A stretch of DNA of 33,069 bases from Bacteroidota bacterium (GTDB taxonomy: Bacteria > Bacteroidota > Bacteroidia > AKYH767-A > OLB10), in assembly GCA_963169675.1 (NCBI GenBank), contig CAUJFJ010000134.1, forward strand, positions 1-33,069, written 5' to 3'. Below the pieces are notes generated by a model. That model worked only from the letters and a program-made list of their open reading frames with translations, made no database searches and was not told the DNA's origin. The position numbers and the translations under genes were made by a program. This document shows, piece by piece, positions 10,706 to 18,322 of the stretch. Each line of letters begins with the position of its first letter. The first letter of the stretch is position 1.

Positions 10706-11147
10706 GAATGATATTTTTCTGCTCAGAAGGAAAATTCGTTATCATGATAAATGATAGATGATAAATGATAGATGGGAGAACTGCCCAGAATGGAATTTCG
10801 TTATTATGATAGATGATAAATTTTAAATTGAATTCTGCTCAGAAAAATGTCATTCTTCAATATTCAATTCTTGTTAATCACTATTCAATAAAAACTTTTT
10901 GAGTACGATAAACAACCAACCTGGGCAGCAAAATAAATCCAAATGAAAAACGAAATCTTTAGGTTTAATTCAAAATAACTAGTCACTGGTCACTGATCAC
11001 CCTTCGATCCGCCAGCCGGCGGACTCAGGGCGGCGCTTTCAACTTGGTGCAGTCATATCATATTACTAAGACACCTCACTTGTCACTGATCACTGAATAC
11101 TGATTACTGATTACTAGTCACTGAATACTGGTCACTGATTACTGATC
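10706..11147. repeat. Low-complexity spacer: GATAAATGATA and ACTGATTACTGA tracts
   Basis: No gene is seen. Around 10740-10830 there are repeated GATAAATGATAGATG blocks and a segment (GAATTTCGTTATTATGATAG..., 10791 on) that recurs diverged near 15480-15540. From about 10979 to 11147 variants of CACTGATCACTG and ACTGATTACTGA are tandemly repeated, interrupted by a palindrome TCCGCC-AGCC-GGCGGA at 11008-11023. Such tracts are typical intergenic filler in some Bacteroidota genomes. Confidence 0.6.
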
Positions 11148-11196
11148 ACCCTGAAGTAGTGCCGCTGAAGCGTGCTTCAGCGGCTCACTTCAGGGT
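11148..11196. repeat. Long near-perfect palindrome
   Basis: The outer arms ACCCTGAAGT (11148-11157) and ACTTCAGGGT (11187-11196) are perfectly complementary. The inner arms GCCGCTGAAGC (11161-11171) and GCTTCAGCGGC (11174-11184) are perfectly complementary around GT. Only a small internal loop (AGT/TC) breaks the 21-bp stem. It lies 19 bp beyond the terminator of the PorE-like gene and could be a second terminator-like hairpin or a REP-type element. Confidence 0.7.
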
Positions 11197-13664: not shown

Positions 13665-15089
13665 TTACTTTTCAGTCAAAGTATTATTTGCAACAATATA
13701 ACAATAAACTGCAGCCGGAATGTAAACGATTTCAATACCTTTAATTATTTTAGAACCAGAAATATCTACCGTTGTTGATAATGCGCGCTCGAGTTTATTG
13801 GCTTCACAAAAATTCAGCAGACTTTTTAATTTTTTAGGATTTTCAAAATAGTTGTCACTCCATTTTATTTCAACTACCCATTTAGGTTTGAAGGTTTTGT
13901 TACTTAATCTGACTAAATCAACTTCGCCTTTCGACCATCTTGCATAATAAGGAATAAAATCATCACGATGCATCCATTGAGAAAATACTGCTGTTTCAAC
14001 CATATAACCCATCTCTTCGTCTGTAGGTGACAATGGTGAGAAGAGTGCAGTTCTCAGACTTGGATTTGTGAGATATACTTTAAAAAAATTATCTCTTTGA
14101 AAGCTTTTCGAATTTTGGTCAATACGTTTCACGATTTTAATCAGAAATGCTGCCTCCAGATAAGTCAGGTACTTTTTTAGCAATGCCTTAGGTACACCTG
14201 ATACTTTACTTAACGATTCCAGACTTATTTCGTTGCCACTGTAATAAGCAAGTTTTGTAAATAAGGAATTAAGTTCCTGAACATCCTGAATTCCATACAT
14301 ACCCGGCAAATCTTTCAATAATACTTTATCAACAATATCACTTCTGATGTATCTTCCGGGATTAGATTTTATAGTATCAGAAAATATAACTTCCGGATAG
14401 CCACCATAATTAATGTAGTCTACAAAATGTTTATTTACTTCTTTTATGTTTAATGCCGAAAAGGAATCTATTATTTTATTTCCCCATTTTAGTTCCGTTG
14501 GAATTAAAAGATGGTCTAATTTTTTCAGATGCATATACTCCTGAAAAGTTAAAGGAGGTAACATGAAATCTGTAAATCGTCCCGCTCCACTTTCAGTACT
14601 ACCTAATTTAAGTGCTGCTGCTGCAGAACCGGAAACAATAAATTTGGTTGACGGATAATCGTCAACCAGAATTTTGAGATGAATCTCCCAATCTTTTAAA
14701 TATTGTATTTCGTCAATAAATACATACCAGTCTTCAGGATTATTATCAGCAACTGTTTCTCGGGCATAACTGAAAAGTTCGTGCAACGGAATATTGCGGT
14801 ATACCGGATTTTCTATGTTTATAAAGCATATTTTTTTATCTGAAATATGATTGTCTAGTAATCCCTGAATGGTATGATGTAACATTACCGTCTTTCCAAC
14901 CCGACGTGGTCCCATGAGAGTTATGGCCCTTCTGACATCAGACTCGAACACCAATGAATAAAATAGCTTGTAGTATAGACGTCGTGGCTTTAATTGATAA
15001 TCTTCGTCTATCTTTCCGTGAATCCACCAGGGATTTTCAAAATTTAATCTATCCAGGATTAAATGCTTAGAAATGGGCTTAAGATTCAT
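13665..15089 (-). CDS. AAA-family ATPase with DUF4143 / PD-(D/E)XK-like C-terminus
   Basis: A 474-aa protein starting at the ATG at 15089; a GTG at 15098 would add three residues. The N-terminal AAA_14-type ATPase has Walker A GPRRVGKT (residues 60-67), Walker B YVFIDEIQYL and a sensor strand FIVSGSAAAAL. A winged-helix region (LESLSKVSGVPKALLKKYL) follows, then a DUF4143-like end with GEVDLV...VVEIKW, the D-ExK pattern of restriction-like nuclease folds. Such proteins are abundant in Bacteroidota and archaea and their role is unresolved; defence, toxin-like or DNA-related functions have been suggested. A -7 element TATTTTTG (complement of 15110-15117) lies 20 bp upstream. No partner gene is visible. 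Confidence 0.9.
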   Translation of the reverse strand: MNLKPISKHLILDRLNFENPWWIHGKIDEDYQLKPRRLYYKLFYSLVFESDVRRAITLMGPRRVGKTVMLHHTIQGLLDNHISDKKICFINIENPVYRNIPLHELFSYARETVADNNPEDWYVFIDEIQYLKDWEIHLKILVDDYPSTKFIVSGSAAAALKLGSTESGAGRFTDFMLPPLTFQEYMHLKKLDHLLIPTELKWGNKIIDSFSALNIKEVNKHFVDYINYGGYPEVIFSDTIKSNPGRYIRSDIVDKVLLKDLPGMYGIQDVQELNSLFTKLAYYSGNEISLESLSKVSGVPKALLKKYLTYLEAAFLIKIVKRIDQNSKSFQRDNFFKVYLTNPSLRTALFSPLSPTDEEMGYMVETAVFSQWMHRDDFIPYYARWSKGEVDLVRLSNKTFKPKWVVEIKWSDNYFENPKKLKSLLNFCEANKLERALSTTVDISGSKIIKGIEIVYIPAAVYCYIVANNTLTEK

Positions 15090-15109
15090 GATTAGCACAT
15101 ATTTTAATA

Positions 15110-15275: not shown

Positions 15276-15392
15276 AGATATGAAATAAATTTCTGACGCT
15301 AATGACCCAATGACAGCAGCTCTGCTGCTAATGACCTAATGACAGCGGCCTGCCGCCAATGACCCAATGACAGCGGCCGTGCCGCTAATGAC
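15276..15392. repeat. Hairpin repeat array A (3 units)
   Basis: The array begins with a 39-bp leader (15276-15314) that recurs identically at 15550-15588. Three short inverted repeats follow: AGCAGC-TCT-GCTGCT (15315-15329), GCGGC-CT-GCCGC (15345-15356) and AGCGGC-CGT-GCCGCT (15372-15386), separated by AATGACCTAATGAC-type linkers. The third stem base pair changes in step (A-T or G-C). The run ends in ACATTTTTTT. Confidence 0.8.
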
Positions 15393-15549
15393 ATTTTTTT
15401 GAACGCAGAGTTAGGGAGACGCGGTAAGAATTAAAAATTAAAGATTAAGAATTAAGGATTAATAGGCTATTGCAAAGAAAGAAATTTCGTTAACATGATA
15501 AATTATAGATGATAAATGCTAGATTGAATCCTGCTCAAAAAACATAAGG
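15393..15549. other. Spacer between the two hairpin arrays
   Basis: No gene is seen. The left part is a run of ATTAAAAATTAAAG-like sequence. The right part (15480-15541) resembles the spacer at 10791-10855, sharing TTTCGTTA, ATGATAAAT, TAGATGATAAAT and CTGCTCA blocks. Confidence 0.6.
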
Positions 15550-15825
15550 AGATATGAAATAAATTTCTGACGCTAATGACCCAATGACGCGGCTCTGCCG
15601 CTAATGACAACAGCTCTGCTGCTAATGACACGGCCTTGCCGCTAATGACCTAATGACAGCGGCCTTGCCGCCAATGACCCAATGACGCGGCTCTGCCGCA
15701 AATGACAGCAGCTCTGCTGCTAATGACCTAATGACAGCGGCCATGCCGCTAATGACAGCAGCTCTGCTGCTAATGACCTAATGACAGCGGCCTTGCCGCA
15801 AATGACAGCGGCTCTGCCGCAAATT
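15550..15825. repeat. Hairpin repeat array B (10 units)
   Basis: After the same 39-bp leader as array A come ten short inverted repeats of two stem types, AGCGGC-(3 nt)-GCCGCT and AGCAGC-TCT-GCTGCT, separated by AATGAC or AATGACCTAATGAC/AATGACCCAATGAC linkers. In all ten, the variable third position of the left arm is matched by the complementary base in the right arm. The array begins about 6 bp after the stop codon of the MORN protein, so on the - strand it lies in that gene's 3' untranslated region. Confidence 0.85.
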
Positions 15826-15830
15826 TGCCA

Positions 15831-17321
15831 CTAATCAAATTTTACTTCTTCACCTGCTATATAGGTGGTTGTCAAAATCAGCTCCCCGGTTATATCGTAC
15901 GACGTCCATTCGCCATCGGCTAAACCAGATTTGTAATTCCGGATTTGTTTGACTTTTCCATTATCGTAATAATAGCGATGTTCTCCGTTTTCATTTCCTT
16001 CAAAATAAGAACCTTCAAAAGCTAATTTACCATTTGAAAAATAACCTTTCCAGTTACCGGTTTCCAGACCATCAATATAAGAGCCTTGTGCGGTGTAGGC
16101 CTCACTGAAAAATTTCCAGGCTCCGTCACGGCGGCCTTCAATATAATTTCCTTCTGCTATGACAGTTGCGGTGTCAGAAAATTCTTTCATGTATCCCTCT
16201 TCTTTACCTTTGAGATACGATTCTTCACGGAGTAGTTTTCCATTCATAAAGTACCACTTCCATTCACCATCAGGTAAGTTGGAAACATATTTTCCAGATT
16301 GCTCCAATTTTCCATTTTCATAGTAAAACTTCCATTCACCATCGCGGTTGCCATCTTTAAAGCTTCCTTCGGAACGAAGCTTTCCGCTTTTATAATAAAA
16401 CTTCCAGGGGCCCTGATATTTCATATTCTCATCTACCAAACCCTCGGCATAGATTTCATTGTCGCGGTATAATTTTGAAGAAGTAATATTTCCTTTAATA
16501 TCATATTCCCGGTATACACCTTGTTTTTTTCCATCAATAATATTAACAGACGATTTCACTCTTCCGCCGGCATGATAATCGCGGTCGATTTCTAATTTTA
16601 CATTTGCTGTTTTATCAATTACCAATTCACCATCTTTAAAAATATCCATCTTCGTGAATTGTCCCTCGGGATTATAATACTTCACCGGTCCTTCCAGCTT
16701 ATCATCTTTGTAATTAGCTTCTTTCTTCACCACAAAATCCGGATAAAATTCTTTCCAGGTTCCCTGCTTAAAACTGAATTTATCTTTGCGATTTATTTTT
16801 TCATCTTTCACCAGATAACCATTCTTATAAATAGAAAGATTAATCACATTACCGGATTCATCATAACTGCGTCCATTACCATTTTCAACACCTTTATCAA
16901 ATGGCACTTCTTTCATCAGATATCCGGTTTCAGAAAAATATTTCGCTACGCCCTGTTTCACACCATTCACCATGGGTTCTTCGGCGCGAATGGATTTATT
17001 GGAATAAAATTCTTTTTGAATTCCGTTTTTGGTGCCACCAACATAATTATAGATGGCTGCCGGTGTCCCATCTTCATTAAAAAACGACCAGGCACCTTCT
17101 AATTTACCATTCACACGGTTTCCTTCCGATTTCAAATTCCCATTTTCATGATAGGCCTTCCAGATTCCATCGGGTTTACCATTCAATAAATTTCCTTCAC
17201 TGCTTTTTGCACCGTTGGGATAATAAAAAATATTAAAACCATTGGGATTTACATTACCCGTTTCCTGGGCAGTAACAATTCCAAATGAAAGTAAAAATGC
17301 AAAAACTAATAATAGTCTCAT
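15831..17321 (-). CDS. Secreted MORN-repeat (YwqK-like) protein
   Basis: A 496-aa protein made almost entirely of MORN_2-type repeats of about 23 residues, for example [20 protein letters not shown] and [20 protein letters not shown], each with the pattern YxxNGkLxxxGxYxxGxxdGxW. An N-terminal signal peptide ([19 protein letters not shown]) implies export. I start it at the ATG at 17321, which overlaps the nadA stop (ATGA at 17318-17321); the frame continues upstream through nadA but without the signal peptide. Proteins of this kind are often annotated as YwqK-family antitoxins, though that function is not established for long secreted forms. MORN repeats form extended beta structures, so a surface or periplasmic structural role is plausible. 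Confidence 0.87.
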
Positions 17322-18322
17322 AGGCCGTGACTCGCTGAAATTTCCAACATTCTTTTTAAAGGTCTTAATGCATCTGCCGCCAGTTCTTCGGGAATTAATA
17401 CTTCGGGAACTTCGTACTTCATACAAAGATAAAGTTTCTCGAGTGTATTTAGTTTCATATGCGGGCAATCGTTGCAGGCACAATTATTTTCCGGTGGGGC
17501 CGGGATAAAGGTCTTATGCGGATTTGCCAGCTGCATCTGATGGATGATACCTGATTCGGTGACAACTATAAATTCATCTGCAGGATTATGTGAAGTATAA
17601 TTCAGCAATGCTGTGGTACTGCCAATAAAATCGGCCTGCTTCAAAACAGGATCTTCACACTCGGGATGTGCAATTACTTTTGCTTTCGGATGCTGATGTT
17701 TCAGCTTCATAATTTTTTCGAGTGAAAAAATCTCATGCACCATACAGGCGCCGTCCCACAAGATCATATCACGACCTGTTTTTTTCATGATATAAGCACC
17801 CAGGTTCTTGTCAGGTGCAAAAATTATCTTCTGGTCTGCAGGCACCGACTCCACTATTTTAATAGCGTTAGAAGAGGTGCAAATGATATCACTGAGTGCT
17901 TTAATACCGGCAGTGCAGTTGATGTATGAAATTACAATGTGATTGGGATGTGATTCTTTGAATTTACGAAAATCTTCCGGCGGACAGGAATCGGCCAGTG
18001 AACAACCGGCATTTAAATCGGGTAATACAACTTTCTTATTGGGATTGAGCAACTTGGCCGTCTCAGCCATGAAATGCACCCCGGCAAAAACAATCAAATC
18101 GGCAGTAGTCTTCTCAGCTTGCTGTGCCAGACCCAGACTATCGCCGCGGTAATCGGCTATGTCCTGAATATCAGCATCCTGGTAATAATGGGCGAGTATG
18201 ATTGCATTTTTTTCTTTTTTTAACTTTTCAATTTCCGCAAACAAATCCAGCGCCGGATCGATTCGCTGATTCAAATATCCGAATTTTTTCACGGCTTCCA
18301 AAATCTCACTTTCTATCATCAT
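17318..18322 (-). CDS. nadA: Quinolinate synthase A
   Basis: A 334-aa 4Fe-4S enzyme that condenses iminoaspartate with dihydroxyacetone phosphate to quinolinate in de novo NAD synthesis. Recognisable are [20 protein letters not shown], the active-site [13 protein letters not shown], and three cluster cysteines: Cys107 ([12 protein letters not shown]), Cys193 (WDGACMVHE) and Cys286 ([11 protein letters not shown]). ENNCACN adds two more cysteines just before the last. ATG at 18322 is immediately followed by a second ATG. No nadB or nadC is adjacent. The last four bases overlap the start of the secreted MORN-protein gene, so the two are probably co-transcribed although their functions seem unrelated. 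Confidence 0.96.

Follow-up and report, generated by a model that had tools for sequence, protein, structure and literature searches.

The window analysed here, a stretch of 33,069 nucleotides of a Bacteroidota genome, carries thirteen short hairpins on the 3' side of a gene for a MORN-repeat protein. The question they raise is whether they are a structure of that gene's RNA, kept by selection, or copies of a sequence that has spread from elsewhere. A first-pass annotation had left room for both, as it took the compensated stems of all thirteen units to imply selection for pairing or copying from two palindromic master units. Comparison with the rest of the genome (G000) and with a single congener (G001) suggests an answer: the arrays in the window are best read as two local clusters of a genus-specific, REP-like short palindromic repeat that is scattered between genes. 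Both genomes are fragmented draft assemblies, with 351 contigs in G000.

Structure of the two arrays

Read directly, the 3' side of the MORN gene holds 3 + 10 head-to-tail hairpins set between AATGAC words, with stems of GCGGC/GCCGC or GCAGC/GCTGC (Table 1). On the AATGAC strand a unit consists of the AATGAC tag followed by a hairpin of 5-6 bp with a 3-nt loop, while one unit of the window has a loop of 2 nt. The minus strand is the coding strand of the MORN gene, and there the pattern is hairpin-GTCATT: GTCATT follows each hairpin of array 1, whose hairpins proper span 15315-15386, and the linkers of array 2 are GTCATT or GTCATT-RG-GTCATT. The MORN-proximal hairpin of array 2 begins about 11 bp past the stop codon. 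The 39-bp leader that the first-pass annotation had seen to be shared by both arrays is, on the GTCATT strand, their 3' edge module.

Table 1. Features of the array region and its neighbours, in window coordinates
Feature	Position	Strand	Composition or basis
39-bp leader, array 1	15276..15314	+	AGATATGAAATAAATTTCTGACGCT + AATGACCCAATGAC; identical to 15550-15588
Array 1	15315..15392	-	three units: one A-T type, two G-C type
Dispersed intergenic module CTCTGCGTCTCCCTAACTCTGCGTTCAAAAA, diverged copy	15396..15426	-	copy counts
Dispersed TTAATCCTTAATTCTTAATC-type module	15430..15462	-	TRF
39-bp leader, array 2	15550..15588	+	identical to array 1 leader
Array 2	15589..15821	-	ten units: 7 G-C type, 3 A-T type
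MORN-repeat protein gene	15831..17483	-	ORF; Pfam MORN_2, 143 bits; 3' end abuts array 2
AAA_14/DUF4143 ATPase gene, neighbour	13665..15098	-	Pfam

The hairpins are real and far beyond chance, with a folding z of -3.8 for the array against dinucleotide shuffles, a z of -2 to -4.5 for single units folded as DNA, and a TRF score of 276 over 15572-15824. The array has a GC content of 58%, against 38% for the window. TRF finds periods of 20, 29, 50 and 78 bp across array 2, which points to probable tandem duplication of blocks of units. Nine units have G-C as their third stem pair and four have A-T, and the pair is matched in 13/13, as had been claimed; not every stem is perfect, however, as two units of array 2 (ACGGCCTTGCCGC and AACAGCTCTGCTGCT) have a broken outer pair. 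The arrays are no CRISPR, since what lies between their repeats is 2 nt, 4 nt or a hairpin, and we agree that they are not a protein repeat. At gathering scores, the window matched none of the Rfam covariance models.

Other short repeats share this region. In the stretches around unit matches, the CTCTGCGTCTCCCTAACTCTGCGTTCAAAAA module has 8 copies in G000 and 9 in G001, and the TTAATCCTTAATTCTTAATC-type module 11 and 18. At 15396-15520, as at many other loci, the intergenic gap is a mosaic of short repeated modules (CTCTGCGTCTCCC..., TTAATCCTTAATTC..., TCTATCATTTATAATTTATCAT...), the order of which is often similar in this genus. Elsewhere in the window (11083-11149), a heptamer-type tandem repeat, TCACTGA in 9.6 copies, lies behind an OmpA-domain gene; its style is like that of the TAACTGA heptamer arrays of Beggiatoaceae, cyanobacteria and Bacteroidetes (PMC4679880).

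A dispersed family in the genus

A search of the genome and its relatives, as the annotation had proposed, placed the arrays in a wider family. With at most one mismatch, the 27-base unit has 33 matches in G000 and 30 in G001 and none in 147 other relatives; the reversed control pattern has none in the own genome. A phylum sample of 395 genomes gave matches in the own genome and none in the 394 others. The matches in a wider collection were ten stretches of the congener G001 (Bacteroidia metagenome bin JAEUTI, MAG-325) and one in Verrucomicrobia. The latter, in a marine bin (L070, 6742-6768), is a single isolated 27-mer with GTCATTGATCATT behind it and is possibly due to chance.

Counted in the stretches around unit matches rather than in complete genomes, the units total 169, of which 84 are in G000 and 85 in G001. 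The clusters are intergenic, except where they overlap two frames of 84-88 aa that are themselves doubtful. The arrays follow or precede many unrelated genes and are not tied to the MORN gene. At one locus (L099, 3865-4035, minus strand) a pure array of GTCATT words with alternating 2-nt and 4-nt spacers and without hairpins lies directly behind three hairpin units.

That the arrays are an artefact of assembling a fragmented draft genome is scarcely credible. Several of the 351 contigs do end near such repeats, and exact unit numbers may be wrong, but an independent assembly, that of another genome bin (L104/L067), has the same locus, leader and MORN gene included.

By a rough count, about two thirds of the main arrays lie toward gene 3' ends, with no convincing orientation bias. 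The hairpins might be an RNA element, which at the 3' ends of transcripts would stabilise the RNA, mark sites of processing or terminate the upstream gene. Where the upstream gene faces the array, the first hairpin often lies 2-75 bp past the stop codon, and at L124, L116, L122 and L151 the array begins at, or merges with, a long palindrome that is specific to the gene and resembles an intrinsic terminator. Published REPs, too, lie mostly downstream of coding regions (PMC3733652). The L095 array likewise starts at a long, terminator-like, gene-specific palindrome adjoining the stop codon; such palindromes at array edges may be targets, seeds or accidental neighbours. However, the hairpins are without a T-tract: where an intrinsic terminator has its U-tract, one strand reads (T)GTCATT and the other has AATGAC words. 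Moreover, about one third of the arrays start next to a divergent gene, on its 5' side. The stems themselves, and the comparison of the two species, bear further on this explanation.

Pairing and covariation

Of the 169 units, 161 have a matched third stem pair (95 G-C and 66 A-T), whereas 20,000 shuffles of the partners gave a mean of 87 matched pairs and a maximum of 113. Off-consensus bases amount to 2.4% in the stem off position 3, against 15-56% in the loop, a degree of conservation which implies that pairing has been constrained, most likely while the copies spread. To this extent the claim of selection for pairing stands; selection at each locus, in the RNA of this gene, finds no support. 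Outside position 3, 30 stem changes are one-sided and one is two-sided (676 pairs), which implies that individual hairpins decay after insertion and deprives the thirteen compensated units of their standing as independent signs of RNA-pairing selection. The first-pass annotation had itself named uncompensated changes in homologous arrays as the finding that would count against it; such changes occur at L105/L120, L104 and L119 and speak against selection per locus. With stem changes one-sided at fixed loci, the RNA element loses ground as well.

The G-C and A-T types are both present in G000 and G001, in about the same proportion in each. The simplest reading is that two founders were copied many times, and this bears out the other half of the earlier claim, that of two palindromic master units. 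The 13-fold compensation in the window is thus best read as the inheritance of two unit types and not as 13 independent selection events. This calls for caution more generally, as covariation counted over repeat copies can reflect the inheritance of two founders instead of repeated selection. Position 3 is mismatched or wobble in eight units. Among them are the opening units of three arrays (L108, L119 and L123), where the arms of two units look as if they had been joined. Folded as DNA, units reach -5.5 to -6.8 kcal/mol, and a mixed-arm unit -2.5.

Turnover between the two species

The comparison of unit number between relatives, also proposed at the outset, showed that it differs. At eleven orthologous loci both species have arrays, differing in unit number or type. 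The window locus has 10 + 3 units against 5 + 1 in the congener (L104), where the leader module is kept once; the stretch of the AAA_14/DUF4143 ATPase gives no alignment with the congener locus (an alignment gap). Perfect units at orthologous loci number 11 vs 4 for the window, 1 vs 5 for L123/L097 and 7 vs 1 for L116/L149. Such wide variation at the same gene (7 vs 1, 11 vs 4) again disagrees with an RNA element, and on balance we regard that explanation as unlikely.

At one further locus, L096, the array is found in G001 only, and G000 has unrelated intergenic sequence near a contig end. At this sole empty site the whole intergenic gap is replaced, so that no insertion borders are definable by the criterion used for MITEs (TIR and target-site duplication), and no clean insertion with defined borders was seen among the compared loci. 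The L099 locus in G000 runs to the contig end. The presence of arrays at eleven loci in both species, and at L096 in one, implies that most arrays predate the species split; they are remodelled quickly and occasionally gained or lost.

Such turnover could also be that of an intergenic minisatellite, in which slippage expands the word GTCATT and carries the hairpins along as spacers, with a transposase at no stage. Pure GTCATT-RR-GTCATT-AATK arrays do exist (L099), other short-word modules share the same intergenic gaps, TRF periods are 20-78 bp, and Bacteroidetes and cyanobacteria are known to have heptamer arrays in a similar style (PMC4679880). Slippage leaves unexplained, however, how the same stems were dispersed to more than 20 separate loci per genus and why the stem rather than the loop is conserved, and we consider it rather improbable.

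A possible link to RAYT transposases and a proposed model of spread

The agents known to recognise hairpins with a tag in single-stranded DNA are the RAYT transposases. One is encoded in the own genome (contig C327 of G000; HLH and YIHDNP motifs; Pfam Y1_Tnp). It has GGATC-AGA-GATCC hairpins around it, and AATGAC precedes one of these. Around this gene (L126, 200-1300) the GGATC-AGA-GATCC and GTCGGTATC-TCT-GATACCGAC hairpins, a separate family, form a REPtron-like arrangement. A RAYT with GTCATT/GCRGC hairpins at its sides turned up neither in G000 or G001 nor among the RAYT loci of related genomes, and G001 has no RAYT-type match though it has about as many units as G000. In the flanks that were read of an IS200-like transposase (contig C66 of G000; L009), neither GTCATT nor GCRGC hairpins occur.

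RAYT-like proteins occur in 46/120 relatives. The same perfect hairpin core (stem of at least 6, 3-nt loop) stands on both sides of 9/28 motif-bearing RAYT loci, against 3/185 control ORFs, and all 3 positive control ORFs lie inside RAYT loci. RAYT-flanking hairpins in this class thus often share a perfect short stem and a 3-nt loop. Head-to-tail arrays stand beside some RAYTs, with periods of 29 bp (L181) and 41 bp (L189). Arrays of perfect hairpins with short loops were noticed by RAYT genes of other Bacteroidia at L181 (1114-1305), L189 (1084-1344), L179 (1045-1456) and L197 (861-2709). The flanks of such hairpins are mostly unlike GTCATT; a CGCCAG-type flank is common to several sets (L174, L175 and L190). 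The RAYT-adjacent hairpins of the class thus resemble the window units in geometry and differ in stem sequence. Because the stem is unmatched and G001 lacks a RAYT match, we call the family REP-like and orphan, and infer mobilisation by a RAYT.

We think it probable that the arrays belong to an orphan family of REP-like palindromes which spread as single-stranded hairpin substrates of a Y1 (RAYT-type) transposase and were expanded locally by tandem duplication. Replication or transcription would expose a unit as single-stranded DNA, and the hairpin is computed to fold. By analogy with known systems, a RAYT-type (TnpA-REP) enzyme, a Y1/HUH transposase, may then have recognised tag and hairpin and spread the units between genes; that transposase would since have been lost or unlinked, the present RAYT of G000 having hairpins of a different stem. 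Both founders, one with G-C and one with A-T as third pair, would have spread before the species split. Blocks of about 21 to 78 bp would be duplicated in tandem or deleted, so that units are gained and lost, as suggested by the TRF periods and the species differences, and inserted copies would decay without selection at each locus, as suggested by the one-sided stem changes. A side effect on the 3' end of a neighbouring mRNA is possible. On the other hand, much of the pattern could be explained with no transposase involved, by tandem duplication and gene conversion.

A variant without a dedicated transposase is fold-back copying at gene ends, in which GCRGC units lengthen a gene's terminator-like palindrome or take its place. 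Gene-specific outer arms do surround a GCRGC-like core at L122, L095, L151 and L124; on template switching, the literature searched yielded nothing specific. We give this variant little credence; if true, hairpins would template further hairpins, a self-propagating hairpin of a new kind. The orphan, transposase-spread family remains our preferred reading, and the best explanation is a genus-specific, non-autonomous, new REP-like family of a known kind of bacterial repeat. It documents two compensated stem types, an unusual AATGAC tag and head-to-tail arrays in a poorly studied genus of Bacteroidia.

Relation to known systems

BOX elements of Streptococcus pneumoniae are modular and contain an internal unit in variable number. 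They resemble the present arrays in this modularity, while sequence and host are unrelated. TAACTGA heptamer arrays (PMC4679880) are also short intergenic words found in Bacteroidetes and cyanobacteria, but they are without hairpins and the word differs.

Closer are the CGTC-tagged palindromic repeats, including dRS3 and RPE, which are orphan repeats without a dedicated transposase, with Bacteroidetes among their phyla and large clusters in Neisseriae and Wolbachia (PMC3733652). The window units are likewise orphan palindromes, and if no base intervenes between stem and GTCATT they read GCCGC-GTCATT, with CGTC at the end of the hairpin; CGTC is present in that case only. The CGTC-tagged stems are of 8-9 bp with loops of 4-5 nt and mostly form head-to-head dimers, whereas the window units have 5-6 bp, mostly 3 nt, and stand head-to-tail.

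The REP/BIME repeats with their RAYTs offer the nearest comparison. In place of the GTAG/GTGG that stands 5' of the hairpin in REPs of the GTRG type, the window units have AATGAC/GTCATT as their conserved flank, and Bacteroidetes RAYTs of subclass 2.6 have REPs without a GTRG tag (PMC6006769). In contrast to a REP whose cognate RAYT is flanked by the same palindromes, the RAYT of G000 has a different stem and G001 has none, in draft assemblies. Unlike the inverted REP pairs of BIMEs and REPINs, the units of each array share one orientation, head-to-tail. In hairpin geometry, a short perfect stem with a 3-nt loop, the window units are like the hairpins by RAYTs of their class, and with REP/BIME systems (PMC6006769) they share the short intergenic palindrome, the one-sided tag, many copies, clusters and a patchy distribution.
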